A stretch of 64,000 bases of DNA from Streptomyces sp. Tu6071. GTDB taxonomy: Bacteria > Actinomycetota > Actinomycetes > Streptomycetales > Streptomycetaceae. The notes below the pieces were generated by a model, which was not told the DNA's origin, ran no database searches, and saw only the letters and a program-made list of their open reading frames with translations. The position numbers and the translations under genes are program-made. The stretch lies in NCBI RefSeq assembly GCF_000213055.1, contig NZ_CM001165.1:2005345-2069344 (forward strand), in the 5' to 3' direction. Shown here piece by piece: positions 1,947 through 39,573 of this stretch (position 1 is its first letter; the number at the start of each line of letters is the position of its first letter).

Positions 1947-2452
1947 CGGGGCAGGCTCGGCGCGGTGCGGCAGAACGGCGCGTGGCGAGGACGCGGGCGA
2001 GGCGTCACACGCGCTACGTCGCGCGGGCCCCGTACCGCTGCCCACGCCGCGCGGGCGTCGCGACGTGGCGCGCGCGGACGGACAAGCGGACCACGCCGCG
2101 TCCTCGCGTTACCGCTCACGTCGCGTCCCGGCCGACGTGGCGTCCGGCCGATGTCGCGTCCTCGTCGACGTCGCGTCCCTACCAACGCCACTTCCGGCCG
2201 ACGTCGCGTCCCCGCCGACGTCGCGTCGTGCCCGGTGCGTAGCCGCCCCGCACGCGACGTCGCATATGCCACGTCGCGTCAGCCGTCGTCGCCCGCAGCG
2301 CCCCGTCCCGCACGCGGACGTCGCGTCGTCGGCGCGACGTGTCGTACCCCGGTCGGCCGCGGCGTCTGCGCGCGGCATCCGCCACGCGGCGTATCCCTGC
2401 GTCGCGACAGGGGCGGTTTCGGCCACGCCAGGACCGACGACCGCATCCCGGT
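1947..2452. repeat. Repeat-dense intergenic region between convergent genes
   Basis: About 500 bp between the methyltransferase and ftsH stop codons is packed with variants of CGCGACGTCGCG (for example around 2010, 2055, 2115-2240 and 2318) and includes one copy of the 28-bp palindrome at 2252-2279. No coding sequence or classic terminator was recognised; the repeat arms may themselves form the terminator hairpin for both genes. Confidence 0.7.
2252..2279 (+). repeat. 28-bp CATATG-centred palindrome, copy 1
   Basis: Near-perfect palindrome: arms ACGCGACGT and ACGTCGCGT flank a GCATATGC centre, with a C:C mismatch each side of the centre. The plus strand reads gtcGCATATGCcac, as in the other four copies. 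It lies in the gap between the convergent methyltransferase gene and ftsH. Confidence 0.85.
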
Positions 2453-4369
2453 TCAGTCGTTCTTGGAGAGGCGGGGGATGCCGGCGGCGTGGTAGGCGTC
2501 GGCCTCGTCGAGGGTCTCGCTCTCCAGGAGGGCGTCGGCGAGGGCGTCGAGCTGGGCGCGGTGCTCCTGAAGGGTGCGCAGGGCGTGGGCGTAGCACTCG
2601 TCGACGATGCGGCGCATCTCCTCGTCGATGGTGTCGAGCGTCGCGGGCGCCGCGGCGAGACCGTAGGGCTGCTGGCCGTCGTTGGGGAGGGCGGAGAGCC
2701 TGCCGACGCGTGCGCTCATGCCCCAGCGGCCGACCATGCCGCGCGCGAGGTTGGTGACCTGTTCGAGGTCGCTCTCCGCGCCGGTCGTGATGACGCCGAA
2801 GACGAGTTGTTCGGCCGCCATGCCGCCGAGCGCGCCGATGATGCGGCCCCGCAGGTACTCCTCCGTGTAGGCGTACTTGTCGGCGTCCGGGGTCGAGAGG
2901 GTGACGCCGAGGGCGCGACCGCGCGGCACGATCGTGATCTTGCGGACCGGGTCGGCGCCGGGTTGCAGCATGCCGAGGAGGGCGTGGCCGCTCTCGTGGT
3001 AGGCGGTGCGGCGGCGTTCCTCGCCCGGCATGACGAGGCTGCGTTCGGCACCGAGCTGGACCTTCTCCAGGGCGCCGGTGAAGTCGGGCATCGTGACGTC
3101 CTGCTTGCGGCGTTTGACGGCGAGGAGGGCGGCCTCGTTGGCGAGGTTGGCGAGGTCCGCGCCGGTCATGCCGGGGGTGATGCGGGCGACCTGGGCGAGG
3201 TCGACGTCGGGGGCGAGCGGGATGCCGCGGGTGTGGATGCGGAGGATCGCCTCGCGGCCCTCGCGGTCCGGCGGGCTGACCACGACGGTGCGGTCGAAGC
3301 GGCCCGGCCGGGTGAGGGCGGGGTCGAGGACGTCGGCGCGGTTCGTCGCGGCGATGACGACGACTCCCTCGGAGCCGGAGAAGCCGTCCATCTCGGTGAG
3401 GATCTGGTTCAGGGTCTGCTCGCGCTCGTCGTGGCCGCCGAGGCCGGAGCCGCCGCCTCGCGCGCGACCGATCGTGTCGATCTCGTCGATGAAGATGATC
3501 GACGGCGCGACCTTGCGCGCCTCCGCGAACAGCTCCCGCACGCGGCTCGCGCCGACGCCGACGATCATCTCGATGAACTCGGAGGCCGAAGCGGAGAAGA
3601 ACGGCACGTTCGCCTCACCGGCCACGGCGCGCGCGAGCAGCGTCTTTCCCGTGCCGGGCGGTCCGGTGAGCAGGACGCCGCGCGGCATCTTCGCGCCCAT
3701 GGCGCGGTAGGCGTCGGGGTGCTTGAGGAAGTCGACGACATCGTTCAGCTCCCCCTCGACCTCGTCGATGCCCGCGACGTCGGCGAAGGTGGTGCGTTTG
3801 CCGCCCTCCATCTCGATCGGTTTGGGCGGCTGCTTGCGGCCGAGCATCCCGCCGGCGCCCCCGAGGCCGGAACTCACCCGGCGCGCGATGAACAACCACA
3901 GCACGATGATCAGGATCATCGGCGCCAGCGAGATGAGCAGATTGGTCAGCAGGCTGCGTTCCTGCACGACGGGCCGCGCGGTGACGGTGACCTTGTGGCG
4001 TTCGAGATCGGCCCAGATCTTGTCATCGGCGAACGAAGGGCGCTGCGTCGTGAACTTCTTGTAGTCCCCGTCGCCGTCGGCGTCCTTCGGTTTCGGCTTG
4101 GACTTGCGCAGCTCGCCCTGGATCGAGTCGCCCTTGGAGTAGATCTTGTCGACGTTGTCGTCAGCGACCTGCTTACTGAACTCGGTGTACGAGATCGTGG
4201 TGTCGTCGTCGTGATTGACCAGCGTGAGGACCAGGTTGGTCAGGAGGTAGACGACGAGCGCGGCGATGATGATCCGCCCCCACGGCGGCTTCCGTTTCGG
4301 CGGCGGCGGTGCCCCCTCCGAGCGCCACGGCTGGTCCGTCCGGTCGCGCGGGGGTACGGGATTGCTCAC
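2453..4369 (-). CDS. ftsH: ATP-dependent zinc metalloprotease FtsH
   Basis: The 638-aa membrane AAA+ protease degrades misassembled membrane proteins and some regulators. Visible parts in order: cytoplasmic N-tail, TM1 (about 31-52, [16 protein letters not shown]), extracytoplasmic domain, TM2 (about 140-162), Walker A GPPGTGKT (236-243), Walker B IIFIDEID (291-298), the second region of homology ending RPGRFDR, and the zinc site HESGH (458-462). The GTG at 4369 was chosen because AAGGAG lies at ideal spacing; an upstream in-frame ATG at 4408 has none. Length fits the family. It is transcribed alone, divergent from nothing nearby, and is separated from ffh by a 550-bp repeat-rich gap. Confidence 0.96.
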
Positions 4370-4854
4370 GCGTGCTCCTTCGCCGCCGGAACGGGTCCTC
4401 CCCCGCATGCCTTGATCCGGACATTAACGGAGGTATGCGACGGCAGCCCCCCGGCTTCGGCCGGACAGGGGGCGGGCGAGGGAGGCGGGGGGCTCGGGGG
4501 AAGAGAGGGGACGTGGCGGGCGTACGGGGCAACGAGGGCGTTGCGCAGGCGACGTGTTCGTCCGGGGCGGCGCGACGTCGCGTGCGTTTGACGTGTACGT
4601 ACGGGACGACGCGTGCGCGGCGTGCACGTGCGGAACGACGTGACGTCGCGTAAGGGCCCCGACGGCGCGCGCCGTCACGCGACGTGGCATCGGGATGCTC
4701 GGTACGTACGGCGCGGCGACGTCGCGAGGACCCGTAGCGCCGCGCATCGCCCCGAACCCGCCGTACGTCGCGTCCCTGCCGCGCACCGCCCGCCCCATCA
4801 CCCGGCGCCGTGGCTGGCGTGGCACCGAACGCGGCGTTCTACGAAGTCGCCGCA
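4370..4854. repeat. Repeat-rich spacer upstream of ftsH
   Basis: The gap upstream of ftsH contains no supported gene. Between about 4520 and 4760 it has many gacgtcgcg-like units mixed with acgtacg and cgtacgg words. The ftsH promoter must lie in the part proximal to 4370, where the only AT-richer stretch is around 4408-4440. Confidence 0.55.
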
Positions 4855-4903
4855 TACGTGAGGCGGGGCGCCCCCTTTTTCAGGGGGCACCCCGCCTCAC
4901 GTA
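4855..4903 (-). terminator. Strong hairpin terminator downstream of ffh
   Basis: A 21-bp inverted repeat with 20 matching pairs (left arm 4855-4875, right arm 4883-4903) around a 7-nt loop starts 18 bp past the ffh stop codon. The stem is very GC-rich and has no U tract, as is common for Streptomyces terminators. Confidence 0.85.
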
Positions 4904-4920
4904 CGACAATCCGAGGACGG

Positions 4921-6462
4921 TCAGCCCATGAACTTCTTGAACTCGTCCGGCAGCTCGAAGGCGCCGCCGCCCTGCGGCGCGTCGTCCTGGCCGCCGGCCG
5001 CGGCCTGGGCGCGGCGTTCGGCGGCGGCCTGCTCCTCGGCCTTGCGCTTCATCGGGTTGCCGCTGCGGCGCTTGCCCTTGGCCTGCTTCTGCTGCTTCTT
5101 CTGGCGCCCCGGGCCACCGCCCATGCCCGGCATGCCGGGAAGGCCGGGCATGCCACCGCCCTGCGCCATGCGCGACATCATCTTGCGGGCCTCGAAGAAG
5201 CGCTCCACGAGGTTCTTCACCGCGCTGACCTCGACGCCGGAGCCCTTGGCGATACGGGCACGGCGCGAGCCGTTGATGATCGTCGCGTCGGCGCGCTCGG
5301 CCGGTGTCATCGACTTGATGATGGCGGCGGTGCGGTCGACGTCGCGTTCGTCGAGGTTGTTGATCTGGTCCTTGATCTGGCCCATGCCGGGCAGCATGCC
5401 GAGCAGCTTGGAGATGGAGCCCATCTTGCGGACCTGCTCCATCTGGGCGAGGAAGTCGTCGAGCGTGAACTCCTTCGGGCCCTTCTGCAGCTTGCGGGCC
5501 ATTTCCTCGGCCTCTTGCTGGCTGAAGGTCCGCTCGGCCTGCTCAATGAGCGTGAGTACGTCGCCCATGTCGAGGATGCGCGACGCCATGCGGTCCGGGT
5601 GGAACGCGTCGAAGTCCTCGAGCTTCTCGCCGTTGGAGGCGAACATGACCTGCTTGCCGGTGACGTGCGCGATGGAGAGCGCCGCACCGCCTCGCGCGTC
5701 ACCGTCGAGCTTCGAGAGCACGACGCCGTCGAAGCCGACCCCGTCGCGGAACGCCTCGGCGGTGTTCACCGCGTCCTGGCCGATCATCGCGTCGACGACG
5801 AAGAGGATCTCGTCCGGGCTGACGGCGTCGCGGATGTCCGCGGCCTGCCGCATCAGCTCCTGGTCGATGCCGAGTCGCCCGGCGGTGTCGACGATCACGA
5901 CGTCGAACTGCTTCGTCCGCGCGTACTCGACGGAGTCCTTCGCGACCTGGACGGGGTCGCCGACGCCGTTGCCGGGCTGCGGCGCGTAGATGCCGACGCC
6001 GGCGCGTTCGGCGACGACGCTGAGCTGGTTGACCGCGTTGGGACGCTGCAGGTCGCAGGCGACGAGCAGCGGCGAGTGGCCCTGCCCCTGCAACCAGCGG
6101 CCGAGCTTGCCCGCGAGGGTCGTCTTACCGGCACCCTGCAGACCCGCGAGCATGATCACGGTCGGGGGCTGCTTCGCGAAGCGGAGGCGTCGCGTCTCGC
6201 CACCGAGGATGCCGACGAGCTCCTCGTTGACGATCTTGATGACCTGCTGCGCGGGGTTGAGCGCCTTGGAGACCTCTTCGCCGAGAGCGCGCTCCTTGAC
6301 CTTCTTGATGAAGGCGCGCACGACGGGAAGCGCGACGTCGGCTTCGAGGAGCGCGATGCGGATTTCCCGCGCGGTGGCATCGATGTCCGCCTCGGACAGC
6401 CGCCCCTTGCCACGGAGGCTCTTGAAAGTCGCTGAGAGGCGATCGGAGAGGGTATCGAACAC
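4921..6462 (-). CDS. ffh: Signal recognition particle protein Ffh
   Basis: The 513-aa SRP54 homologue binds 4.5S RNA and signal sequences and docks ribosomes to FtsY at the membrane. It shows the N domain (1-95), the G domain with GLQGAGKTT (107-115), DTAGR (192-196) and LSKLDGDARGG, then a methionine-rich M domain with LLGMLPGMGQI and a GMPGLPGMPGMGGG stretch, and a basic KKQQKQAKGKRR tail. It starts with GTG in the sequence matching the family MFDTLSDRL start; a weak GAGG lies upstream. The length is that of streptomycete Ffh. Its receptor gene ftsY is 9 kb away in the same orientation. Confidence 0.97.
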   Translation of the reverse strand: MFDTLSDRLSATFKSLRGKGRLSEADIDATAREIRIALLEADVALPVVRAFIKKVKERALGEEVSKALNPAQQVIKIVNEELVGILGGETRRLRFAKQPPTVIMLAGLQGAGKTTLAGKLGRWLQGQGHSPLLVACDLQRPNAVNQLSVVAERAGVGIYAPQPGNGVGDPVQVAKDSVEYARTKQFDVVIVDTAGRLGIDQELMRQAADIRDAVSPDEILFVVDAMIGQDAVNTAEAFRDGVGFDGVVLSKLDGDARGGAALSIAHVTGKQVMFASNGEKLEDFDAFHPDRMASRILDMGDVLTLIEQAERTFSQQEAEEMARKLQKGPKEFTLDDFLAQMEQVRKMGSISKLLGMLPGMGQIKDQINNLDERDVDRTAAIIKSMTPAERADATIINGSRRARIAKGSGVEVSAVKNLVERFFEARKMMSRMAQGGGMPGLPGMPGMGGGPGRQKKQQKQAKGKRRSGNPMKRKAEEQAAAERRAQAAAGGQDDAPQGGGAFELPDEFKKFMG

Positions 6463-6856
6463 GGCGCTCGTCGGTCCTCGGGGTCGGGGGCAGGGGTAAT
6501 CGCTGTCTAGGGTATCCGCCCTGCCGGGGAGGAAAGCCGTCGCGGGGGAACGGGGGCTCTGATCCGGTACGGGGCGGGGGCGACGCGACCGTCGCCGGGG
6601 GGCACGACGCGGGGGCTGGAACGCGGCGTCGCGCCGGGCGTGGGACGTGACGTCGCGCCGGTGTCGCGCGTGCGGGACGTCGGCGACGTCGCGTGGTGGA
6701 GGCGCGACGTCGCGTACGGGGCGGGGCGACGTCGCGTGCGCTTGACGTCGCGCGCACCGCGTGGACGTCGCGGCGTCGCGCCATGCGCGTGGTCCCCGGC
6801 CGCGACGTCACGCACCTTGGCACAGGACGTCGCGGCCTCGTTGCCTCGTCTGCGCC
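6463..6856. repeat. Repeat cluster between ffh and glnD
   Basis: No gene is present. Seven exact gacgtcgcg units lie between about 6645 and 6835, several arranged as full CGCGACGTCGCG palindromes, interspersed with gtacggggcg words. The ffh promoter must be in the 6463-6600 part, where the stretch around 6500-6520 (gtctagggtatc) is the least GC-rich. Confidence 0.7.
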
Positions 6857-9361
6857 TCAGCCCAGCGTGCGTTCCAGTTCGGACGCCAGTGCCGACGCGA
6901 CGTCGGGGGCGAGGGGGCCGCCGTCGGGGCCGGTGACGTAGAAGGCGTCGACGGCGTTGGCGCCGAGGGTGCTGGCGTGGGCGCTGCGTACTCGTACGCC
7001 CGCGTTCTCCAGCGCCTGGCCGAGACGGTGCAGCAGGCCGGGGGCGTCCTGGGCGCGGACCTCGATGACCGTCGCGCTGTGGGACGCGGCGGGGGCGACG
7101 CGTACTCGGGGCGGGGGTACGGAGAGTCCCTTGCGGCGCGGGTACGCCGCGTCGCGTTCGGCGAGGCGGCCCCGGATGTCGAGGCTGCCGTCCAGGGCGC
7201 GGACGAGGTCGGCGCGCAGCCGCGTCGCCTGGGGCAGCGAGCCGTACGCGGCGGACACGCGCCAGTCCAGGACGAGAACGGCCGTGGCGTCGCCCGCGCG
7301 CGCCCCGCCGGACGCGACGTCGCGCGGAACGTCGGGTGCCGTGCGCAGTTCCCCGGGGATCTCCGTGCCCCGGAATTCGGCGGTGCGAACCGTGAGCCGG
7401 TGCATCGCGAGGACACCGGCGACGGCGGGCAGGACGCCGGGCTGGTCCGGCACCGCGACGAGCAGTTCGACGCCCACAGGCGCCTGCGCGTCCGCCTCGG
7501 CGTCGCCCGGCTCTCCCTCGTGGCGGGTGCGGAGGGTCAGGACGGGGCCGGCAGTGCGGTACGCCTCGACGGCGAGCCGTTCCTGCTCGGCCGTGAGCGC
7601 CGCGGCCTCCTCCGGCTCCGGGGGCTCGGCACCGGAGAGCGCGGCGGCGACGCGGGCGGCGAGGTCGTCGACGAGCGAGGCGCGCCAGGCGGACCACGCG
7701 GCGGGGCCCGTCGCGAGGGCGTCGGCCTCCGTGAGGGCGTGCAGCAGTTCCAGCGTCGCGATGTCGCGCACAGCGTCGGCGACGCCGCGCACCGTCGCGG
7801 GATCGTCCAGGTCACGTCGCGTCGCGGTCTCGACGAGCAGCAGGTGGTGACGCACGACGGTCGCGAGCGTCGCGACGTCCGTGGCGTCGAAGCCGATGCG
7901 TGCCGCGACGTCGCGCACGATGATCTCGCCCGCCACCGAGTGGTCGCCGGGCCACCCCTTGCCGAGGTCGTGGAGCAGCGCCGCGACGAGCAGCAGGTCG
8001 GGGCGGGAGACGCGACGCGTGAGCGCGGCGGCGCGTACGGCCGTCTCCACGAGGTGGCGGTCGACTGTCCAGGTGTGGACGGCGTTGCGCTGCGGGCGGC
8101 ACCTTACGCGTTCCCAGTCGGGCAGCAGTCTGGTGACGAGCCCGCCCGCCTCCAGCGCCTCCCACACCTCGACGGTGGGGCGTCCCGCGCCGAGCAGAGT
8201 GACGAGTTCCTCGCGGGCCTCGGCCGGCCACGTCGTCGGGAGCGGCGGGCAGGCGGTCGCGAGGCGGCGTACGGCGTGGGGGGACAGCGGGAGGGCTGCC
8301 TGCGCGGCGGCCGCGGCGGCGCGCAGGGGCAGGACGGCGTCGCGTTCGGGGCGCGCCGTCCGGGCGAGGACGGCTTCACCCTCCTGCTCGACGACACCGT
8401 CGGCGAGCGGCGTGCGCTCCGGCGCACCGCGCCCGGCGCCGAAGACGGCGCGCAGTCGGGGCCGCAGCGAGCGGGCGCGCAGGACACGCTGCACCTCGCG
8501 CCACGTGACGTCGCCCGCGTACGCGAGGGTGCGCGCCGCTTCGTAGACCTGGCGGAGCAGCGCGTCGGCGTCGAGCAGGCCGAGGTGGGCGGCGACCTGG
8601 TCCTGTTCCTGGAGGGCGAGGCGGTCGGTGGCGCGCCCCGTCGCGAGGTGGAGCGCGTCGCGCACGTCGAGGAGGGTGCGGCGCGCTTCGTCGAGCCCGG
8701 CACGCGGGGCGTCGGCGAGCCACGACGCGGCGACGGCGCGCAGGGCTGTCGCGTCGCGCAGGCCGCCGCGGGCCTCCTTGAGGTCGGGTTCGAGGAGGAA
8801 CTGGAGCTCGCCGTGGCGCTCCGCGCGTTCGACGCACAGGTCGTGGAGGGCCGGCAGGCGCTTGGGGGCCTGGTTGCGCCAGTCGGCGAAGACGGTGGAG
8901 CGCAGGGCGGTCGTCAGCCCGAGGTCGCCCGCGACGTGGCGGGCGTCGAGGAGACCGAGGTGGACCTTCAGGTCCTCTCCGGCGGTCTTGCGCGCCTCGT
9001 CCGGGGTGCGCACGGAGTGGTCGAGATCGAGACCGAGGTCCCACACGGGGTACCAGACGCGATCGGCGACGGCCGCGATGGCGCGCGGTTCCGCACGGCC
9101 GTCGTGGAGGAGCAGGAGGTCGAGGTCGCTGCGCGGGGAGAGTTCGCCACGTCCGTAGCCGCCGACCGCCACGAGGGCGACGCCGCGTGGCGCCGCGGCG
9201 GCGTCGAACAGCTCGGCGAGCCAGGAATCGGTGAGGGTGGCGAGCGCCTGCCTGCGGGCGCGGCCGTCCTCCGCGTTCTCGTGCAGCAGGCGCAGTCGCG
9301 CCGCCGCGTAGCCCCCCGGCTCGGCGTCTTCGGTTTCCTGGCGTTGGTCGAGGCTCGTCAC
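6857..9361 (-). CDS. glnD: PII-modifying nucleotidyltransferase GlnD
   Basis: The 834-aa enzyme modifies and demodifies PII (GlnB/GlnK) in response to nitrogen status; in Streptomyces the modification is adenylylation rather than uridylylation. The nucleotidyltransferase motif GGYGRGELSPRSDLDLLLL is at 67-85, the HD phosphohydrolase motif LLHDLGKG near 462-469, and two ACT-like domains form the C-terminus. The GTG at 9361 is preceded by AGGAG at good spacing. A short linker before the first ACT region (PDVPRDVASGGARAGDA, nt about 7290-7345) carries the window's repeat unit in frame. Unlike the tight amtB-glnK-glnD arrangement I recall in S. coelicolor, 786 bp separate it from glnB. Confidence 0.95.
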   Translation of the reverse strand: MTSLDQRQETEDAEPGGYAAARLRLLHENAEDGRARRQALATLTDSWLAELFDAAAAPRGVALVAVGGYGRGELSPRSDLDLLLLHDGRAEPRAIAAVADRVWYPVWDLGLDLDHSVRTPDEARKTAGEDLKVHLGLLDARHVAGDLGLTTALRSTVFADWRNQAPKRLPALHDLCVERAERHGELQFLLEPDLKEARGGLRDATALRAVAASWLADAPRAGLDEARRTLLDVRDALHLATGRATDRLALQEQDQVAAHLGLLDADALLRQVYEAARTLAYAGDVTWREVQRVLRARSLRPRLRAVFGAGRGAPERTPLADGVVEQEGEAVLARTARPERDAVLPLRAAAAAAQAALPLSPHAVRRLATACPPLPTTWPAEAREELVTLLGAGRPTVEVWEALEAGGLVTRLLPDWERVRCRPQRNAVHTWTVDRHLVETAVRAAALTRRVSRPDLLLVAALLHDLGKGWPGDHSVAGEIIVRDVAARIGFDATDVATLATVVRHHLLLVETATRRDLDDPATVRGVADAVRDIATLELLHALTEADALATGPAAWSAWRASLVDDLAARVAAALSGAEPPEPEEAAALTAEQERLAVEAYRTAGPVLTLRTRHEGEPGDAEADAQAPVGVELLVAVPDQPGVLPAVAGVLAMHRLTVRTAEFRGTEIPGELRTAPDVPRDVASGGARAGDATAVLVLDWRVSAAYGSLPQATRLRADLVRALDGSLDIRGRLAERDAAYPRRKGLSVPPPRVRVAPAASHSATVIEVRAQDAPGLLHRLGQALENAGVRVRSAHASTLGANAVDAFYVTGPDGGPLAPDVASALASELERTLG

Positions 9362-9438
9362 CCGGCAGCTCCTGGCCCCCGCGGGAGCGGGGTTCGTGGT
9401 CGGTCAGCGGTGTCAACGGCGAAGGGTCGGGGGTGGTC

Positions 9439-9515: not shown

Positions 9516-9592
9516 GATGAGTCTTTCGTGGTTCCTACAGTTTTCGACGGTCTACAGGGGCGGCGCGACGTCGCGGTAAAGGTGCAGGTCGC

Positions 9593-10147: not shown

Positions 10148-12501
<2,354 letters not shown>

Positions 12502-29413: not shown

Positions 29414-29439
29414 CGTGATCCCCTCGCTCTGCGGTCGAT

Positions 29440-30396: not shown

Positions 30397-32724
30397 TCAC
30401 CCCTTCTCCAAGTAGCTCTCCCTCTCCTCGTCGAGCAGCGCGTCCAGGGCCGTGCGCAGTGCGGGGTGGGCCTCCAGGGCCGGGTCGGCGGCGACGACGG
30501 CCGTGGCCTCCTCGCGGGCCTCGGCGATGATCTGCTCGTCCTCGATGACGGCGAGCATCCGCAGCGACGAGCGGACGCCGGACTGCGCCTGCCCGAGGAC
30601 GTCGCCCTCGCGGCGTTGCTCCAGGTCGACGCGGGACAGCTCGAAACCGTCCAGCGTCGCGGCGACCGCGCCGAGGCGGGCGCGCGCCGGGCTCGCCTCC
30701 GGCATGTCCGTGACGAGCAGGCACAGTCCGGGCGCGGAGCCCCGGCCCACCCGGCCGCGGAGCTGGTGGAGCTGGGAGACCCCGAAGCGGTCGGCGTCCA
30801 TGATCACCATGGCAGTCGCGTTGGGCACGTTGACGCCGACCTCGATCACCGTCGTCGCGACGAGCACGTCCAGCTCGCCCGCGGCGAAGCGGCGCATCAC
30901 GGCGTCCTTGCCGTCCGGCCCGTCGGGCGCCATCCGCCCGTGGAGGATGCCGATGCGCAGCCCGGCGAGCGAACCCTCCGCGAGGCCGCGCGCGACATCG
31001 AGCACGGCGAGCGGCGGACGCTTGTCCCCGGCGGCCTCGGCACCGGCGTCCTCGTCCGCGCCGAACCCCGTACCGAGCCCCGCGCCGTCCGCGTCCTCCG
31101 CCGCCTTCGTACGTGAGGACTCGCCCTTCGCGCCCTTCGCCCCCTTCGCCGCGTCGGCTCCCGCCTTGACGCCCTTCTTGGCCCCCTTGGCCCCGGCGGT
31201 CTCCTCCTCGTCGCCGATGCGTGGGCAGACCACGTACGCCTGGTGGCCCGCCGCGACCTCCTCGCGGACGCGTTCCCACGCGCGTGCCAGGAAGTGGGGC
31301 TTGTCCTGGGCGGGGACCACGTGCGTCGCGATCGGGGAGCGCCCGGCGGGGAGCTGGTCGAGCACCGACGTCTCCAGGTCGCCGAAGACGGTCATGGCGA
31401 CGGTGCGCGGGATGGGGGTCGCGGTCATGACGAGGAGGTGCGGCGGCTGCGCGCCCTTGGAACGCAGCGCGTCGCGCTGCTCGACGCCGAAACGGTGCTG
31501 TTCGTCGACGACCACGAGCCCGAGGTCGTGGAACTTCACGACGTCCTCGATGAGCGCGTGCGTACCGATGACGACGCCCGCCTCGCCCGTCACGAGGTCG
31601 AGGAGGGCCTTGCGGCGCGCGGCGGCGCCCAGCGAACCGGTGAGCAGCACGACGCCCGTCGCGTGCTCCGCCGCGCCGAGCGTGCCGCCCGAGGCGAGGT
31701 CGCCCATCATCTCGGTGATCGAGCGGTGGTGCTGCTGCGCGAGGACCTCGGTCGGGGCGAGCATCGCCGCCTGGCCGCCCGCGTCGACGACGGCGAGCAT
31801 GGCGCGCAGCGCGACCATCGTCTTGCCCGAGCCGACCTCGCCCTGGAGGAGGCGGTGCATGGGGTGGTCGGTGGCGAGGTCGTCGAAGATCTCGCGCGAG
31901 ACCTTCTGCTGGCCCTCGGTGAGCGTGAACGGGAGGCGCGCGTCGAAGGCCGCGAGGAGCCCGTCGGGGGCGGGACAGCGGGGGACGGCGGGCAGTTGCG
32001 CGTCGGCGTGGCGACGGCGGGCGAGCGCGGTCTGGAGGACGAACGCCTCGTCCCACTTGAGGCGGTCGCGCGCCGCCTCCACCTCGGTCTTGCTCTGCGG
32101 CCGGTGGATCTTCACCAGGGCTTCGGGCAGGGGCAGCAGCCCGCGCCCCTCGCGCAGGGAGTCGGGCAACGGGTCCAGGGCCTCGTTCGCGCTCGGCAGC
32201 ACCGCGTCGACCGCCTTGGCGATCTTCCACGACTCCAGCTTCGCGGTGGCCGGGTAGATCGGCAGCAAGCTCGACGCCCATGTCCCCGCGGCCTCGCGCG
32301 CGTCGCTCTCCTCGGCGAGCAGTTCGTAGGCGGGGTGGGCGAGCTGGAGCTTGCGGTTGAAGACGGAGACCTTGCCCGCGAACATCGCGCGCGTGCCCGG
32401 GAGCAGGTCGTGCTGCGGCTTGTGCACGCCGCGCCCGAAGAACACCAGTTGCAGCCGGCCGCTGCCGTCCGTGATGGTCACTTCGAGGCGCTTGCCCCGG
32501 CCCGCGTTGAAGGTGTGCACTCGCGCGTCGGCGACGCGCGCCACGACCGTGACGTGCTCGTCGAGCGGCAACTCGGCGAGCCGCGTCAGCTCCCCGCGCT
32601 CGGCGTAGCGGCGCGGGTAGTGGTGGAGCAGGTCACCGACGGTGTGCAGGCCGAGGTGCTCGGCCATCACCTTCGCGGTGGGCGGTCCGAGCACCTTCTT
32701 CAGCGGTTCATCGAGCGTGGGCAC
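30397..32724 (-). CDS. recG: ATP-dependent DNA helicase RecG
   Basis: The 775-aa helicase reverses stalled forks and branch-migrates recombination intermediates. It contains the wedge/OB domain (VARVADARVHTF...VFFGRG), motif I GEVGSGKT, DEQHR, MTATPIPR, and RGRVGRG. Between motifs III and IV there is an unusually long Lys/Ala/Gly-rich insert (KGAKKGVKAGADAAKGAKGAKGE and following acidic part, nt about 31005-31200), longer than I recall in other streptomycetes. The GTG at 32724 matches the conserved LDEPLKKVLGPPTAKVMAEHLGL start, although GGGAGG lies too close to it. Confidence 0.95.
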   Translation of the reverse strand: MPTLDEPLKKVLGPPTAKVMAEHLGLHTVGDLLHHYPRRYAERGELTRLAELPLDEHVTVVARVADARVHTFNAGRGKRLEVTITDGSGRLQLVFFGRGVHKPQHDLLPGTRAMFAGKVSVFNRKLQLAHPAYELLAEESDAREAAGTWASSLLPIYPATAKLESWKIAKAVDAVLPSANEALDPLPDSLREGRGLLPLPEALVKIHRPQSKTEVEAARDRLKWDEAFVLQTALARRRHADAQLPAVPRCPAPDGLLAAFDARLPFTLTEGQQKVSREIFDDLATDHPMHRLLQGEVGSGKTMVALRAMLAVVDAGGQAAMLAPTEVLAQQHHRSITEMMGDLASGGTLGAAEHATGVVLLTGSLGAAARRKALLDLVTGEAGVVIGTHALIEDVVKFHDLGLVVVDEQHRFGVEQRDALRSKGAQPPHLLVMTATPIPRTVAMTVFGDLETSVLDQLPAGRSPIATHVVPAQDKPHFLARAWERVREEVAAGHQAYVVCPRIGDEEETAGAKGAKKGVKAGADAAKGAKGAKGESSRTKAAEDADGAGLGTGFGADEDAGAEAAGDKRPPLAVLDVARGLAEGSLAGLRIGILHGRMAPDGPDGKDAVMRRFAAGELDVLVATTVIEVGVNVPNATAMVIMDADRFGVSQLHQLRGRVGRGSAPGLCLLVTDMPEASPARARLGAVAATLDGFELSRVDLEQRREGDVLGQAQSGVRSSLRMLAVIEDEQIIAEAREEATAVVAADPALEAHPALRTALDALLDEERESYLEKG

Positions 32725-33129
32725 CCTCCCATTGCACACCACGCGACCGACAACCGACCGCGCACGCCTCGCGGGGGCGGTACGTCGCGGGGGTTGCGGG
32801 GGCGACGTCGGGTCGTGGGCACCTCGCGGGCCCGCACCGCGGCAGCGGAACAGGCGCATTCCCCGCCTCCCGGCCGAACCCGCCCAACGGGCCCGCGCCG
32901 CGGCAGCGGAACAGGTCCTGGCGGCGACGAGCGCCGGGGCGCGGGAAGAAAACGCCTGACGCCTGGCGGACGTGCGTACAGGACACCCGTATGGGACGGC
33001 CGTATAGAATCGTCGTCTTGCCGTCGCCCTGTACGCACGTCTCATACAGGCGTACAGACGCCTTGTACGCGTGTACAAGACGCGCGTACAAGCGTCCGCC
33101 CGTCGCGCGCCGTCGGGCGCCGCTCCGCC
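32725..33129. promoter_or_regulatory. recG upstream region with direct repeats and GTAC palindromes
   Basis: The 405-bp gap has no gene. A 27-bp direct repeat with one mismatch is at 32828-32854 and 32889-32915. From 32975 to 33090 six GTAC words occur, including a perfect CTTGTAC-GCGT-GTACAAG palindrome at 33062-33079 and a TATAGAAT at 33003-33010. This is the least G/C-monotonous part and probably holds the recG promoter or a regulator site. Confidence 0.55.
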
Positions 33130-34998
33130 TCACTCCACCCCGACGAGCAGGAGCGCCGCGTCGCGTCCTCCCTCGTAGACGACGGTGTCCACCGCGAGGT
33201 GGTGCGCGCGTACGTGCCGCTCCAGGTCGTCCGCGAGAGTTTCCGGGCAGTCCTCGCCGAGGACGAGCGTGACCATCTCGCCGCCCGCAGCGAGCATCCG
33301 GTCGAGAACGGTGCGGGCGATCGCGGCGACGTCCTGCCCGATGACCACGACGTCGCCGTCGATGAGACCGAGCACGTCGCCGGCCTGGCAGATGCCGACC
33401 GAGGTCCACGAGCGGTGCTCGGCCACCGCGAGTTCCGCGCAGCGCGTCGCGCCCGCGGCGCTCGTCATGGCGACGACGTCCTCGTCGAAGCGCCGCTCCG
33501 CCTCGTGCACGGCGAGCGCGGCGACGCCCTGCACGGCGGAGCGGGTGGGGATCACGGCGACGCGAACGCCCAGGTGGCGCGCGTCCCGTGCGGCGGCGGC
33601 AGCGGTGTGGTGGAGGGCGGCGTCGTTGGGCAGCAGGACGACTTCGTGGGCGTGCGCGCGGCGCACCGCCTCGGCGAGTTCACCGCTGCCGGGCAGCTCG
33701 CCCGGCCTGGCGGGCACGGTCGCCGCGCCCGCCTCCGCGTACAGCTCGGCGAGTCCTTCGCCCGGTACGACGGCGACGATGGCACGGGGTACGCGTTCAC
33801 CGCTCGCGGGGGCGGGTCGCGCGGCGTCGGAGGCGAAGTGCGTGATGCGGACGCGGTGCGGGCGCCCCGCCTCGATACCGGCCTCGACAGCGGCCCCCGC
33901 GTCGTCCACGTGCACATGGACGTGCCACAGGCCGTCTCCGCCCACGACGACGAGGGACTCACCCAGCGCGTCGAGCCGCGCGCGCAGGCGCGCCACCGCC
34001 TCGTCCTCGGCGTCGAGGAGATAGATCACCTCGTACCCGGGCCCGGACCCGTCCCACTCCTCGGTGTCCCGGCACGCGACGTCCCCGCTCCCCCGCCGCG
34101 CGACGTCGCGCGACGCCCCGTCGTCCCCGCGCGTCACGTCACCCCGCGCCACGTCTCCACCGCGCGCGACGTCACGCCCCGCGACGCCGCCCCCGCGCGC
34201 GACGTCCTCCCCGAACGCCGCGTCGTCCGCGTCCCTCCCGCCGCCCGCTCGCGCCCCGTCCCCGCCCCGCTCCATACGCGACGTCTCCGGATGACGCGGC
34301 TGCCAGCGCTCCGGCCGCGCGACGGGTCCCGCTGCGAACGGCTCCCCGCCCAACGCCGCGACCAGCGCGGCCAGGACGGCGACGAAGCCCCTGCCGCCCG
34401 CGTCGACGACGCCCGCGCGACCGAGCGCGGCGAGCTGTCCGGGGGTGCGCTCCAGGGCGTCGCGCGCGGCGTCGTACGCGGTGCGGGCGACGACGCGGCA
34501 GTCCGCCTCCTCCGACGGGCAGGCGTGCGCAGCGGCGGATGCGACGGTGAGGACGGTTCCCTCGACGGGGTGCGCCACGGCCTCGTACGCGGCCTCGGCG
34601 GCGCGGCGCAGCGCGGCGGCCAGGACGACGCCGTCGACCGCTTCGCCCGGCGCCTCGACGAGCACCTGCGCGGCGCCGCGCAGCAACTGGGCGAGGATGG
34701 TGCCCGAGTTGCCGCGCGCGCCGACGAGCGCGCCGTGCGCCATCGCGCGGGCGACTCCGTCGAGGCCGGGCCCCGCCGCCGGGGACGCGTCGTCCCCGTA
34801 CGCCTCGAAGACGGCCTCGACGGCGCGGAAGGCCGCCTCGCTCGTGAGGTAGAGGTTCGTCCCGGTGTCGCCGTCGGCGACCGGGTAGACATTGATGGAG
34901 TCGATCTCCTCGCGCGCCCGGCCCAGTGCGTCGAGGGCCGTCGCGCACCAGGCGCGGAGCGTGGTCGCGTCGAGGAGCCGTCCTTCGTTCCCGGACAT
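33130..34998 (-). CDS. DAK2 (DhaL) domain protein, FakA-like fatty acid kinase subunit
   Basis: The 622-aa protein has an N-terminal DhaL domain (INVYPVADGDTGTNLYLT with the Asp cluster for Mg-ATP; ARGNSGTILAQLL) followed by the YloV/FakA-type C-terminal domain (WHVHVHVDD, LGLIDGDVVVIGQDV, LVLGEDCPETLADDL). Family members phosphorylate fatty acids with DegV-type FakB partners; no fakB is seen here. A low-complexity linker between the domains (nt 34045-34290; DVARGGDVARGDVTRGD) is made of the window's repeat and looks like an expansion. The ATG at 34998 has GGAAGG upstream. It precedes recG, the usual Gram-positive order. Confidence 0.9.
   Translation of the reverse strand: MSGNEGRLLDATTLRAWCATALDALGRAREEIDSINVYPVADGDTGTNLYLTSEAAFRAVEAVFEAYGDDASPAAGPGLDGVARAMAHGALVGARGNSGTILAQLLRGAAQVLVEAPGEAVDGVVLAAALRRAAEAAYEAVAHPVEGTVLTVASAAAHACPSEEADCRVVARTAYDAARDALERTPGQLAALGRAGVVDAGGRGFVAVLAALVAALGGEPFAAGPVARPERWQPRHPETSRMERGGDGARAGGGRDADDAAFGEDVARGGGVAGRDVARGGDVARGDVTRGDDGASRDVARRGSGDVACRDTEEWDGSGPGYEVIYLLDAEDEAVARLRARLDALGESLVVVGGDGLWHVHVHVDDAGAAVEAGIEAGRPHRVRITHFASDAARPAPASGERVPRAIVAVVPGEGLAELYAEAGAATVPARPGELPGSGELAEAVRRAHAHEVVLLPNDAALHHTAAAAARDARHLGVRVAVIPTRSAVQGVAALAVHEAERRFDEDVVAMTSAAGATRCAELAVAEHRSWTSVGICQAGDVLGLIDGDVVVIGQDVAAIARTVLDRMLAAGGEMVTLVLGEDCPETLADDLERHVRAHHLAVDTVVYEGGRDAALLLVGVE
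34045..34290 (-). repeat. Repeat-derived linker inside the FakA-like gene
   Basis: In-frame stretch of gcgacgtc, cacgtcac and cgcgacgtcgcg units encoding Asp/Val/Ala/Arg/Gly repeats between the DhaL domain and the C-terminal domain. Bordering segments (ERWQPR and GYEVIYLLDAED) are normal in composition. Confidence 0.75.
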
Positions 34999-35153
34999 CA
35001 GGGCCTTCCCGGGCACCAGGGCCTCCTTGCGCAGCAGGACGAACGCAGCGTAGTCGCAGCTCGGACCGGGTACGGTCGGAGGCCGGGAACGGCCATGGCC
35101 GCGGTCATGGTAGTTTCGTAGAGCGGGAGTGGCCGCTGTATGCTGCTCCGGTT

Positions 35154-35230
35154 GCCCGATGAGAATCGGGCCATTCCCCCCGGCAACGCCAAATCAGGCA
35201 CTTCCGTCTCTGATCCCGGCCTGCCGGGAT
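35154..35230 (+). promoter_or_regulatory. rpmB leader with two hairpins
   Basis: Two perfect stem-loops lie in the rpmB 5' region: GCCCGAT-gaga-ATCGGGC (35154-35171) and ATCCCGGC-ct-GCCGGGAT (35213-35230). The second ends 36 bp before the GTG start. They may be leader structures for ribosomal protein control; a tgtatgct at 35137-35144 could be the promoter -10. Confidence 0.55.
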
Positions 35231-35266
35231 TCACTGTAAGTGCATCTGAAGTCTTTGGAGTGACCC

Positions 35267-35452
35267 GTGGCTGCCAACTGCGACGTCTGCGGCAAGGGGC
35301 CGGGCTTCGGCAACAACATTTCGCACTCGCACCGCCGTACGCCGCGTCGCTGGAACCCCAACATCCAGCGCGTGCGTGCCGTGGTCGGTGGAACGCCGAA
35401 GCGGCTCAACGTCTGCACCTCGTGCATCAAGGCCGGCAAGGTCTCGCGCTAA
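35267..35452 (+). CDS. rpmB: 50S ribosomal protein L28 (bL28)
   Basis: The 61-aa protein MAANCDVCGKGPGFGNNISHSHRRTPRRW... is the cysteine-containing (C+) form: CDVC at the N-terminus pairs with CTSC near the end to form a zinc ribbon. It starts with GTG after TTGGAG at ideal spacing. It stands alone, divergent from the FakA-like gene, with its own leader hairpins and a strong terminator. Confidence 0.97.
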   Translation: MAANCDVCGKGPGFGNNISHSHRRTPRRWNPNIQRVRAVVGGTPKRLNVCTSCIKAGKVSR

Positions 35453-35536
35453 GCGTGAGGCGGTCCCGTTTCACGACGGTACCGATCCGGTCTCGCGCTG
35501 ACGTAGTGCGGCGCGGCCACCTGGCTGGTTGCTGTG

Positions 35537-35568
35537 AGAGCCGGTCCGTCTTAGGGCGGACCGGCTCT
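35537..35568 (+). terminator. Terminator of rpmB
   Basis: Perfect 12-bp stem AGAGCCGGTCCG with its complement around an 8-nt loop, 84 bp past the rpmB stop codon, followed by TACG. Confidence 0.85.
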
Positions 35569-35995
35569 TACGTGTGCCCGGACACCGGAGCGTCGGCCTC
35601 CGGTGCGAGGCGGACTCCACGCACGCGGCCGGTCGCCACCGGCCGCCGCTTCCGGTGACCCCTGCTCCAGCCCTCGCCTTCAGCGCCACCACGTCGCGCG
35701 CCCCACGCCTCCGCCCCAACCACGTCGCGCGCCCCTCGCGGCCATGTCACGCATTCCATGCCCCCACGTCGCGCGCCTCGCGCCGCCACGTCGCGCACCG
35801 CGCCCCGTATCACCGCAGTTCACACGCGACGTCGCATATGCCACGTCGCGCGCACGCCGCGCCGCGTCACACCCCGCGGCGGCCCTCCCCACATCGCGAC
35901 GTGCAGAGGCGTCGGCGGCTTCCACGGCGTCACCACCACCCCCGCCAGCCCGCCTCAGCCGCCCGTCTCAGCCCCCTCAGCCCGCCTCAGTCCCC
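35569..35995. repeat. Repeat-dense gap between rpmB terminator and thiD
   Basis: Contains a run of ccacgtcgcgcgcc and ccatgtcacgc words (35690-35800), one copy of the 28-bp palindrome (35824-35851), and a Ser/Pro-like cctcagcccgcctcag tandem region (35950-36000) where a cagcccgcctcagtcccct unit recurs. No gene. Confidence 0.7.
35824..35851 (+). repeat. 28-bp CATATG-centred palindrome, copy 4
   Basis: Identical to copy 1 except the last base (C instead of T). The left flank (atcaccgcagttcac) is shared with copy 5. It lies between convergent rpmB and thiD. Confidence 0.85.
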
Positions 35996-36805
35996 TCAGC
36001 CCGCCTGCGCCCCCGCCCCCCGGAACCGCCACCCGTGGTCGACGGGGCCGATGCCCGCGCCGAGGGGGAAGCCCGCCGCGATGGCGCCGGTGACGTAGTC
36101 CTTCGCGGCGCGCACCGCGGTCGGGACGTCGTGGCCGAGGGCGAGGTGGGAGGCGACGGCCGAGGCGAGGGTGCAGCCGGTGCCGTGGGTGTGGCGGTTG
36201 TCGAGGCGGGGGGCGCGGAGCCAGTGCTCCTCGGTGCCGTCGGTGAGGAGGTCCACGGCCTCGCCCTCCAGGTGGCCGCCCTTGATCAGGGCCCAGCGCG
36301 GGCCGAGGGCGAGGACGGCCCCGGCCGCCTCGGGCAGGTCCTCGGGGCGCGTGACGTGGACGCCGGTGAGCTGGGCGACCTCGTCCAGATTGGGGGTCGC
36401 GACGGTGGCGACGGGGAGCAGTCGCGTACGTACGGAGTCGAGCGCGTCGGAGGCGAGCAGCGCGTCACCGTGCTTGGAGACGCCCACCGGGTCGACGACG
36501 GTCGGTGCGTCGGTCGTCGCGAGGAGCTCCGCGACCGTCTCGACGAGCGCGGCCGAGGAGAGCATCCCGGTCTTGACCGCATGGACGCCGATGTCGTCGA
36601 CGACGCTGCGGTACTGGGCGCGCACGGCCTCGACGGGGAGGTCCCAGGCGCCCTGCACACCGAGCGAGTTCTGCGCCGTGACGGCGGTGAGCACGCTCAT
36701 CCCGTGCACGCCCAGCGCGAGCATCGTCTTGAGGTCCGCCTGGATGCCGGCGCCACCGCCGGAGTCGGAACCGGCCACGGTCAGGACGCGCGGGGGTATG
36801 TGCAT
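35996..36805 (-). CDS. thiD: Hydroxymethylpyrimidine (phosphate) kinase ThiD
   Basis: The 269-aa ribokinase-fold enzyme phosphorylates HMP and HMP-P for thiamine synthesis. It has the start motif [39 protein letters not shown] and the anion-hole [15 protein letters not shown] 36805 fits the family start. No ribosome binding site is visible; TAGATT lies seven bases upstream of the ATG, so the mRNA could be leaderless. Its neighbour thiL acts later in the same pathway, on the same strand 263 bp upstream. Confidence 0.95.
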
Positions 36806-37068
36806 ACGCCCGAATCTACCGCCCCATCCGCGCCACGGCGCAGCCACGTCGCGCACCGCCCGCCCCGTCACCCCACGCGACACGACGCCGCACCCACGCA
36901 CCACGACGCCCCCCGTACGTGCACCAACGCGACGCGCCCCCACGCGCCGTGCACCTGGGCGCCATGCCCCCGCACACCACGCACCGCCGCGACGTGCGCC
37001 GACGCGACGTCCCTCCGCGCCACGTTCACCGACGCGACGTCCCCCGCGCCACGTTCACCCCCGCAACC

Positions 37069-38064
37069 TCACCCCCGCCCCGGCGTCTCGATCCCGTCGT
37101 CGCCCTCGTCCCCGCCGAAGTGGTCCCAGCCCCCCGCGCGCGTCCAGGGCGCGCCGTCGACGGTCACCTCGGGGCGTGCCGAGGGGTGAAGGACCTCGCC
37201 GATGACCTTCCAGCGTGCCGGCAGCTTCACGTCTGGCGGGAACGTCGCGACGATCGCGTGGTCCTCGCCGCCCGTCAGCACCCACTGGAGCGGGTCGACG
37301 CCGACCGCCTGCCCGATGTCGTACATCTGCGAGGGCACGTCGACCTTGCCGGAGACGAGGTTGATGCGGACGTTGCTCGCCTCGGCGATGTGCCCGAGGT
37401 CGGCGATGAGGCCGTCACTCACGTCGGTCATGGACGTCGCGCCGAGCGCGGCGGCGGCGGGGCCCGCGTGGTAGGGCGGTTCGGGCCTGCGGTGCGCCTC
37501 GACGAAGGCGCGCGGGGAGCGGAAGCCGCGCGAGAGGACGGCGTGCCCCGCGGCGGACCAGCCGAGCCAACCCGTGACGGCGACGACGTCGCCCGGCCGC
37601 GCCCCGGAGCGGACGACCGGCTCCTGGTTGCGCATGTCGCCGAGCGCCGTGATCGCGACGGTGATGGTGTCGCCGCGTACGAGGTCGCCGCCGACCACGG
37701 CAGCGCCCGCCACCTGGCACTCGTCGCGCAGCCCGTCCATCAGCTCGATCGCCCATGTCGCGGGCAGCGTCGCGGGCACGACGAGGCCGAGGACGAGGGC
37801 CGTGGGCACCGCGCCCATAGCGGCGATGTCGGCGAGGTTCTGCGCCGCGCCCTTGCGCCCGACGTCGTACGCGGTCGACCAGTCGCGGCGGAAGTGCCGG
37901 CCCTCCACGAGGACGTCGGTGCTCACCACGACGCGGCGGTCGGGCGCGGTCACCACCGCGGCGTCGTCCCCCGGGCCGAGCCGCACCGCCGGCGTCGTGG
38001 TGAGTCGTGACGTCATCTCCCTGATGAGCCCGAACTCGCCGAGTTCCCCCACAGTGCCCTTCAT
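37069..38064 (-). CDS. thiL: Thiamine-monophosphate kinase ThiL
   Basis: The 331-aa PurM-like kinase forms thiamine pyrophosphate from the monophosphate. Motifs: LGPGDDAAVV, STDVLVEGRHFRRDWS, GGDLVRGDTI, MTDVSDGLIADLGH and GGEDHAIVATF. ATG 38064 gives the conserved MKGTVGELGEFGLI start, with AAGGGG upstream. Divergent from the Lrp-like gene; same strand as thiD. The intergenic stretch to thiD is C-rich and repeat-bearing (gcgacgtccc words). Confidence 0.95.
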   Translation of the reverse strand: MKGTVGELGEFGLIREMTSRLTTTPAVRLGPGDDAAVVTAPDRRVVVSTDVLVEGRHFRRDWSTAYDVGRKGAAQNLADIAAMGAVPTALVLGLVVPATLPATWAIELMDGLRDECQVAGAAVVGGDLVRGDTITVAITALGDMRNQEPVVRSGARPGDVVAVTGWLGWSAAGHAVLSRGFRSPRAFVEAHRRPEPPYHAGPAAAALGATSMTDVSDGLIADLGHIAEASNVRINLVSGKVDVPSQMYDIGQAVGVDPLQWVLTGGEDHAIVATFPPDVKLPARWKVIGEVLHPSARPEVTVDGAPWTRAGGWDHFGGDEGDDGIETPGRG

Positions 38065-38285
38065 CCCTGTGCCCCTTCTGCGCCGTACCGTTCACGGCCG
38101 AGTGCCTTCGCCGCCGCGGGTACCGTCAAGTCTTGCCTGAACTTCCGTGCGCCGCGTCCCCCGGAAGCGGCACCACCGTACGGAGCGGGGCGCAGCACGC
38201 GCGGGGGGCTCCCCGCGGCGCGCGGCGACGCGATACCGTGGCGTCCCCTTTCCCCCATGATCCTCATGGCCGCCCTGGAGGTTCC

Positions 38286-38519
38286 GTGGTACAGGCGTAC
38301 ATTCTGATCCAGACGGAGGTCGGCAAGTCCTCCGCGGTAGCCGAACTCGTCGGCTCGTTCGACGGTGTGATACAAGCCCAGGACGTCACGGGCCCGTACG
38401 ACGTGATCGTGCGTGCCGAGGCGACGACGATGGACGACCTCGGTCGCATGGTCGTCGCGAAAGTGCAGCAGGTGGAGGGCATCACCAGGACCTTGACCTG
38501 CCCCGTCGTCCATCTGTAA
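38286..38519 (+). CDS. Lrp/AsnC ligand-binding domain protein (no HTH)
   Basis: The 77-aa protein is a stand-alone RAM/AsnC effector domain: VQAYILIQTEVGKSSAVAELV, GPYDVIVRAEATTMDDLGRMVV and VEGITRTLTC. It lacks the DNA-binding half of Lrp. Such proteins may bind amino acids and modulate full-length Lrp regulators, but this one's role is unknown. GTG 38286 has a perfect GGAGG five bases away. The DUF3515 gene follows after 21 bp, so they are probably one transcript. Confidence 0.93.
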   Translation: MVQAYILIQTEVGKSSAVAELVGSFDGVIQAQDVTGPYDVIVRAEATTMDDLGRMVVAKVQQVEGITRTLTCPVVHL

Positions 38520-38540
38520 CCCCCGTCTACGCTGGGCGGC

Positions 38541-39041
38541 GTGAACATCTCCGTGCTGCGGCGACTGCTCGTTCCCGCCGTCCTGCTCCCGCTGCTGACC
38601 GCCGTCGGCTGTTCGTCGCCGGACTCGGCGTCGGACTCCGCGGCGAAGGCCGCGGTCCCCGCACCGGACGCCGCCGCCGCGAAGGCGTGCCGGAAGCTGC
38701 ACCCGAAGCTTCCGGAGCGCGTGGACGGACTCGACAGGAACAACCCGGCTCCGAAGTCCGAACTGACGGCCGGATGGGGCGACCCGGCGATCATACTGCG
38801 CTGCGGAGTGCCCCGTCCGGCCGCGCTCGACGACCCGAAGACGGACGGCGTCGAGGTCGACGGCGTGGACTGGGCCATCGTCCACGAGGACGGTGGCCCC
38901 TACCGCCTCTACACGACGCTGCGCATCGCCTACGTCGAGGTGACGATCCCCGCCGCGCGCGCCGACAACGGACTCTCCCCCCTCACCGACTTCGCGAAGC
39001 CGGTCACGAGCGCCATCCCGAAGGGCATCGCGGAGGGCTGA
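38541..39041 (+). CDS. DUF3515 lipoprotein
   Basis: The 166-aa protein has a signal peptide with lipobox LTAVGCSS (Cys about residue 24), a short Ala/Asp-rich linker, and the DUF3515 domain with GWGDPAIILRCGVPRP, VDWAIVHEDGGPYRLYTTLRIAYVEVTIP. It is exported and lipid-anchored; function unknown, though the family is conserved across actinobacteria beside ddl and thiL. GTG start at 38541. Confidence 0.92.
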   Translation: MNISVLRRLLVPAVLLPLLTAVGCSSPDSASDSAAKAAVPAPDAAAAKACRKLHPKLPERVDGLDRNNPAPKSELTAGWGDPAIILRCGVPRPAALDDPKTDGVEVDGVDWAIVHEDGGPYRLYTTLRIAYVEVTIPAARADNGLSPLTDFAKPVTSAIPKGIAEG

Positions 39042-39573
39042 GCACCGCGCGGAACCCGCCGCGACGGTGGTACGGGAAGGGACAGCGGTACGAGGACGAC
39101 CCGCCCACCCGGGCCGGGCACACCACCCGCCGCACCACCCTCACGCAGCCGACGCCACGTCGCCGCAGACGCCACGTCGCACACACGCCACGTCGCCCGC
39201 AGACGCCACGTCGCGCGGACGCCACGCAGCCGACGCCACGTCGCGCGCCCACGTCGCGCCCACGCCCACACGCCGCGCGCATCACCGCAGGTCACACGCG
39301 ACGTCGCATATGCCACGCCGCGTGCGTCATCGCCGGCCCGCGCGACGAAGCGCACCCCACACCCCACAGCTCCGGCGCCACGACGCCCCCCGGGCACCCA
39401 CCGCGCCACGACGCGCCCCCCGGGCGCCCACCGCGCCACGACGCACCTCAACGGCCGGCCCGCCACACCCCCGCCACGAACGCCGCCACACTCCCCCAGC
39501 GCGACGCCCTCACCGCGAGGCCCGCGCCGAGAGCCCCGCCCCGGCCCCCGTCACGCGCCGCGAGCCCCGCGTC
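39042..39573. repeat. Repeat-dense gap between DUF3515 gene and ddl
   Basis: From 39118 to 39270 the sequence is a run of ccacgtcgc-containing 14-26 bp units (gacgccacgtcgc recurs at least six times). The 28-bp palindrome copy 5 follows at 39296-39323, then a 28-bp period tandem repeat around 39387-39442 (gccacgacgc and ccccccgggc words). No gene, no clear terminator. Confidence 0.75.
39296..39323 (+). repeat. 28-bp CATATG-centred palindrome, copy 5
   Basis: Matches copy 1 except one T-to-C in the right arm (ACGCCGCGT). The left flank (atcaccgcaggtcac) matches copy 4. Located between convergent DUF3515 gene and ddl. Confidence 0.85.

Follow-up and report, generated by a model that had tools for sequence, protein, structure and literature searches.

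A confined array of palindromes and their arm words on a Streptomyces chromosome, tentatively read as a binding-site array

Why does a 28-bp imperfect palindrome stand five times between the genes of one 64,000-nucleotide stretch of the chromosome of Streptomyces sp. Tu6071? This stretch, called here the window (C1:2005345-2069344), lies on the 7.36-Mb contig C1, which carries dnaA near its middle (3.789 Mb) and is accompanied by a second contig of 147 kb. The palindrome belongs to a domain of about 140 kb (about C1:1,905,000-2,045,000, 1.9% of the chromosome), in which its arm word ACGTCGCG is repeated hundreds of times. A preliminary description of the window had placed the five palindromes correctly; the wider domain, with its about 490 arm words, was missed. 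We tentatively propose that a putative centromere-like or domain-organising protein binds throughout this 140-kb interval, the words and palindromes being its sites.

The palindromes and their arm word

The palindrome consists of two arms facing each other across CATATG, with the C:C mismatch in the core that had been described. The five window copies appear as five exact 18-mers GACGTCGCATATGCCACG, all on the plus strand; two of the 28-bp cores are identical to the consensus and three are one base off. Searching the window with the 18-mer gave 10 matches, which are the five sites plus the same five read on the opposite strand with two or three mismatches, against 0.14 expected, and none of 100 shuffles reached 10. 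The five palindromes are real and well beyond chance. The features of the window are as follows (window positions, with C1 positions in brackets).

2252..2279 (C1:2007596), plus strand: palindrome 1, 28-bp core, full consensus, in a gap between convergent genes.
9593..9620 (C1:2014937), plus strand: palindrome 2, 27 of 28 consensus bases, in the glnD-glnB gap, left flank caggtcgc.
9897..9924 (C1:2015241), plus strand: palindrome 3, full consensus, in the glnD-glnB gap, left flank caggtcgc.
35824..35851 (C1:2041168), plus strand: palindrome 4, 27 of 28, in the rpmB-thiD gap, left flank atcaccgcagttcac.
39296..39323 (C1:2044640), plus strand: palindrome 5, 27 of 28, between convergent genes, with atcaccgcaggtcac as its left flank; its counterpart in the related Streptomyces sp. 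SPB074 is degenerate.
1..39323, no strand: right-hand part of the domain, which extends left past the window start.
9362..10147, no strand: expanded glnD-glnB gap with two palindromes inside, 786 bp long where two outgroups have 25 and 27 bp.
40001..64000, no strand: DNA outside the domain, with ACGTCGCG 11 times in 24 kb.

All five copies are intergenic, as first reported. Those at 2252, 35824 and 39296 lie in convergent gaps, the neighbours of 35824 being rpmB (plus strand, 35267-35452, ribosomal protein L28) and thiD (minus strand), and the remaining two share the glnD-glnB gap. The common left flanks also agree with the sequence; because several copies have their left flank in common, the unit may measure about 44 bp, within the 40-50 bp first suggested, and a GGTC-type flank adjoins 6 of the 11 cores found in this genome.

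These eleven palindromes were counted at a threshold of 24 of 28 bases. With at most one mismatch there are 10 places in the genome, all within C1:1,913,078-2,044,661, and outside that interval three places were found, each with two or three mismatches. The recurrence beyond the window and between species that the preliminary description had anticipated is borne out, and the element is neither restricted to the window nor unconserved. The fixed orientation claimed for it holds for the window copies and breaks down over the genome, where four minus-strand copies at 1,913-1,942 kb are followed by six plus-strand copies at 1,943-2,045 kb (at most one mismatch), and between species, where 2 of 9 orthologous cores are flipped.

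Between 1.905 and 2.046 Mb (141 kb) there are 491 copies of the arm word ACGTCGCG, and 144 of these sit in 72 perfect ACGT-centred palindromes CGCGACGTCGCG. Counted over 1.90-2.05 Mb there are 497 copies, in gaps as well as in genes (206 of the 497 inside genes); DNA used for comparison has 87 in 220 kb. The density is 28-99 per 20 kb across 1.90-2.04 Mb; elsewhere it averages 2.97 with a maximum of 8 (36 chromosome samples of 20 kb each), and each of eight pieces of the second contig holds 0-4. Within the window, 140 copies fall in 1-40000 and 11 in 40001-64000, the final dense cluster of the domain lying at 39208-39297. A 12-mer, GCGACGTCGCGC, has 70 of its 90 genome copies in 1,906,191-2,039,455 (1.8% of the chromosome). 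Word density is highest in convergent gaps (13.8 per kb, 9 gaps) and amounts to 4.1 per kb upstream of starts compared with 8.0 per kb downstream of stops. Where the word lies inside genes, its translation gives DATSR and RDVA peptides that recur in the linkers and N-termini of proteins, as in the genes at C1:1922013-1923416 and 2002057-2002953.

The edges of the domain are sharp. Of 28 five-kb bins between 1,905 and 2,045 kb, 23 reach a density of 3 or more intergenic words per kb, and 28 of 36 such bins outside have none. Within the domain there is a hole at C1:1985000-1995000, where the gaps around rpsB-tsf-pyrH-frr, about 3 kb in all, contain no intergenic word; outside the domain, the bins at 1,865-1,870 and 2,110-2,120 kb are outliers. 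A satellite cluster about 40 kb to the left (C1:1866968-1869709) holds 16 copies of ACGTCGCG, including half a palindrome with the AGGTCAC flank.

At the left edge, the first 12-mer (1,906,191) is about 7 kb from an rRNA operon (16S at 1,897,804-1,899,332), the leftmost of the two 16S genes found in the assembly, where others may be collapsed. From the leftmost 16S to glnD the distance is 114 kb here and 148 kb in the outgroup G133 (leftmost of six 16S genes), and these may be the same operon; in a second outgroup, G175, no 16S was found near the syntenic block. Distal rRNA operons are described (PMC9723626; PMC8410849) as borders of the Streptomyces central compartment.

The enrichment is specific to the word. 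Among words of the same composition, those in the motif's own registers set aside, none has more than 32 intergenic copies, compared with 289 for ACGTCGCG, for which a first-order Markov model expects 15.6. CpG-rich low complexity was rejected as the cause, such words of equal composition showing no enrichment. In a blind 8-mer scan, ACGTCGCG was the top 8-mer in all 7 bins of 1.90-2.04 Mb (z 9.0-25.2). Over the 36 chromosome samples, the same scan placed the parS words at oriC first (z 16.7 and 11.8), all other words scoring at most 8.9; as a positive control, 12 exact GTTTCACGTGAAAC parS sites lie in the 40 kb around dnaA (C1:3780001-3820000). Another possible local site cluster was seen at C1:4500001-4520000, a stretch of 20 kb where the palindrome GAACGTTC, counted on the two strands together, has 12 copies and 0.8 would be expected.

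Relatives and outgroups

Palindrome sites are common to this genome and to Streptomyces sp. SPB074, NRRL F-5630 and SID11385. With at least 24 of 28 bases in the same gap or gene, 9 of the 11 palindromes have an intact counterpart in SPB074; that at 2,044,640 has a degenerate counterpart and that at 1,931,984 has none. Seven of the nine intact pairs keep the same orientation, and those at 1,919,594 and 1,943,598 are flipped; a core turned around between unchanged flanks is the result expected from hairpin-loop inversion, which may have operated here. Further palindromes, particular to SPB074, lie at positions 1,568,157 and 1,679,801 of that genome. The SPB074 array lies in the same gene order, with 36-80 copies of ACGTCGCG per bin in 7 bins (1.54-1.68 Mb), compared with 1-7 in each of 12 samples from other parts of that genome; in six of the 7 bins no word scores higher than ACGTCGCG, the seventh being topped by a run of A. 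In NRRL F-5630 and SID11385, where loci were found via the palindrome itself so that losses and absences are not sampled, 11 draft loci contain 16 palindromes, of which 14 have a palindrome of this genome no more than 175 bp away by interpolation, each in the same orientation.

Wider surveys were made by counting GCGACGTCGCGC, and a domain marked by a different word would be missed by them. Among 392 genomes of the genus, this genome has 90 copies, SPB074 has 80, and the next has 29 (38 for its reversed-word control). Among 296 genomes of the class, high counts were found in G431 (99), G550 (77) and G462 (69), with controls of 17, 32 and 42. Actinobacteria outside Streptomyces that are rich in the 12-mer include G416 (50), G439 (57), G456 (52) and the same G431 (controls 2, 11, 4 and 17); the copies are dispersed for all 50 in G416 and all 52 in G456, and in G431 among the matches listed (48 of 99). 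No donor or parallel array emerged from the genus and class counts and the positions in these three genomes. Viral contigs gave 0 matches. Single near-copies of the palindrome in G009 and in two unrelated metagenome-assembled genomes were taken as chance, because the surrounding DNA holds 0-2 words per locus.

In the outgroups G133 and G175 these genes are present with 0-3 words per 10 kb, over stretches that do not reach the leftmost part of the domain, and these outgroups keep the same core gene order without the array, a natural before-and-after comparison. Blind scans of the syntenic block in both turned up no similar array; the one exception was a CAGGGGCGCGGGGAAC-type repeat of G133. That repeat is over-represented between genes at G133:C1:3140001-3320000 (10-mers up to 22 copies on both strands, about 1 expected). 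When only neighbour pairs found in both genomes are compared, the gaps sum to 23,111 bp here and 12,480 bp in G175 (74 gaps; 1.85x), and to 20,706 bp here and 13,313 bp in G133 (66 gaps; 1.56x).

Single words are fluid. A comparison of 193 coding words with SPB074 found 95 in both genomes, 29 opposite alignment gaps, 18 with silent differences and 51 with changed residues, some of the last being N stretches in SPB074. Positions of words turn over while their density persists.

Readings of the array

Few site arrays mark one chromosomal domain, and each has led to a DNA-folding or DNA-moving protein. The sharp and confined domain, the stable palindromes and the fluid single arms together fit nucleation sites plus weaker sites of a protein that spreads or bridges, and an array with palindromes common to related species looks like a landing strip for a DNA-organising protein. 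One putative sequence-specific protein would organise, condense or anchor this part of the chromosome, in the manner of a centromere or macrodomain site array. ACGTCGCG, often doubled into CGCGACGTCGCG, would be its single binding site; the about eleven 28-bp palindromes would be strong nucleation sites, and the hundreds of single words would be places for loading, spreading or bridging of the protein along the interval. The protein-binding role, one of three raised in the preliminary description, is still the best reading of the element, although we hold the full array reading only tentatively. A farther-reaching form of it is possible at most: that this is a new type of chromosome territory, non-origin and centromere-like, just inside the rRNA-operon border of the linear chromosome, gained in one Streptomyces lineage, with selection on word density and not on single sites.

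Several observations weigh against a binding-site array. The expanded gaps are equally compatible with a spreading repeat. Coding words are kept in SPB074 like controls (90/162 and 1560/2824, N-affected genes excluded), and intergenic words only slightly better than controls (49/178 and 188/897), 62 domain gaps remaining once gaps below 40 bp, with N or above 3 kb were dropped. The palindrome cores are better conserved in SPB074 (123 of 140 bases identical, 88%) than their flanks (108 of 160) and other intergenic DNA of the domain (15,443 of 21,915, 70%); this speaks for the array, but the figure covers the alignable 5 of 11 sites. The words are most frequent at places where they would disturb regulation least, as expected of tolerated junk. 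In the blind scan, the lowest score of a domain bin (z 9.0) does not exceed that of CCGTACGG in a neighbouring bin (z 9.2, 2.06-2.08 Mb). Helical phasing of the words was not reproducible and was not accepted: among 300 jittered sets, the proportion reaching the intergenic value was 0.013 here and 0.137 in SPB074. Finally, no binding protein was found among the domain genes, the rest of the genome, including ParB, MatP and RacA, not having been searched.

The rival that survives best, which we nevertheless consider rather unlikely, is local proliferation of the palindromic repeat of about 44 bp, similar to miniature inverted-repeat transposable elements (MITE) or repetitive extragenic palindromes (REP), which would copy itself preferentially nearby and decay into single arms, tolerated in gaps and in disordered linkers of proteins and without host function. 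It would account for the gaps 1.56 and 1.85 times the outgroup length, the one-sided flanks in common, the rarity of words before starts relative to the DNA after stops and the poor conservation of single words. Coding copies, moreover, often lie in insertions or linkers (33/146 and 39/161 in alignment gaps relative to the two outgroups). Many coding copies are however gapless in origin, some having arisen by silent change (33/146 and 30/161); palindrome sites are stable between species, and confinement to 1.9% of the chromosome is hard to reconcile with such spread. Seven gaps aligned by eye revealed no clean insertion with target duplication, the two species being too diverged to judge. Like REP elements mobilised by RAYT transposases, the palindromes are imperfect hairpins in gaps with a one-sided flank; the array differs in occupying one domain only, with hundreds of single arms. 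The RAYT-driven origin suggested at first is not supported, the Y1 transposase domain (Y1_Tnp, PF01797) being found in neither of the 2 genomes searched and in 5 of 14 control genomes; other transposases were not searched for. If the array did arise as a locally spreading repeat, it would represent a strongly local mode of bacterial repeat growth, within 140 kb. Searches of the open-licence literature in PubMed Central gave no description of such growth or of this array among the matches listed, and one match (PMC8782336) concerned, in the part seen, a CRISPR spacer.

A regional bias of mutation, repair or gene conversion towards the word, with no selection for the array, is improbable. Such a bias has been proposed for the genome-wide iterated palindromes of cyanobacteria (PMC4390886). 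In its favour, density outlasts position, gains of coding words change amino acids, and intergenic DNA diverges faster within the domain (identity to SPB074 0.763 in 62 gaps, compared with 0.859 in 11 gaps and 0.898 in 14 gaps outside). A genome-wide bias, however, would not end at sharp edges; the palindrome cores are conserved, and codon usage in the domain is the same as in the rest of this genome.

Import of the block by recombination from a lineage with the word genome-wide would explain the sharp edges and the narrow taxonomic spread. We disfavour it strongly, the codon usage of the domain being native and different from that of the outgroups and divergence from these being equal inside and to the right of the block (medians 79.9 and 81.6% for G133, 80.8 and 79.3% for G175); no other genome of the genus is rich in the words, and the high-count genomes of the class are not close relatives and are dispersed among the matches listed.

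Least probable of all are ordinary operators or bidirectional terminators, the latter proposed at first as a dual terminator: the palindromes can fold as hairpins (DNA, -11.3 kcal/mol, z -3.05) and convergent gaps are densest in words, but, unlike in intrinsic terminators, no T-run longer than 2 stands within 12 nt of any of 37 cores, words are depleted ahead of starts, 206 of 497 copies are within genes, and the element was not found at other genes of this genome.

Known systems and the genes of the domain

The array is filed here with site arrays, outside the parS, ram and matS families (ParB and MatP not having been searched for). As in the ParB-parS system of Streptomyces, short ACGT-centred palindromes are clustered in one region, in genes and gaps, and the same blind scan detects both. 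The array has another word (CGCGACGTCGCG and the 28-mer, compared with GTTTCACGTGAAAC for parS), about 490 single words and a position about 1.8 Mb from dnaA; its site fails the parS word, and parS forms a separate array at oriC. MatP-matS likewise marks one domain by a site array, but its sites are much less numerous and extend over a larger region at the terminus. For polar fork-trap sites of the Tus-Ter kind, which have a conserved orientation, the picture is mixed: 4 minus-strand copies lie to the left and 6 plus-strand copies to the right of 1.9425 Mb, and 14 of 14 copies in two species agree with those here, but 2 of 9 cores are flipped in SPB074.

Three other systems are comparable in part. 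Ram sites of RacA in Bacillus subtilis (PMC6593407) are also many, short and dense in one region and are bound by a condensing and anchoring protein; they are dense near the origin and spread over the chromosome, whereas the array here is mid-arm and confined (1.905-2.045 Mb, dnaA at 3.789 Mb). The sps site of SpdA on Streptomyces plasmids (PMC4170104), which affects plasmid stability, is a 12-bp palindrome with ACGT at its centre, CGTCACGTGACG, that is translated into protein as well; it differs in its word, is present in 2-3 copies on plasmids and is reported to be rare on chromosomes. HIP1 of cyanobacteria (PMC4390886) is a GC-rich palindrome over-represented in genes and gaps, but genome-wide, unlike the 12-mer here.

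Genes were called with a simple purpose-made caller, by which small genes such as rpmB were missed. The names glnD, glnB, rpmB, thiD, smc, ffh, ispG, rpsB, tsf and frr rest on Pfam matches, and pyrH is supported by Pfam as an amino acid kinase only; the remaining names are presumed from sequence and gene order. Three called genes of the domain (g091, g096 and g155) match SPB074 without a reciprocal match in either outgroup; in Pfam, g091 is DUF1684, and g096 and g155 have no convincing match. At the left edge, the gene at C1:1912431-1917197 encodes a 1588-aa protein with a ParA/MinD-type ATPase domain and holds 22 words and one palindrome. It is 58% identical to its counterpart in SPB074, compared with more than 90% for most neighbours, and is present in an outgroup as well.

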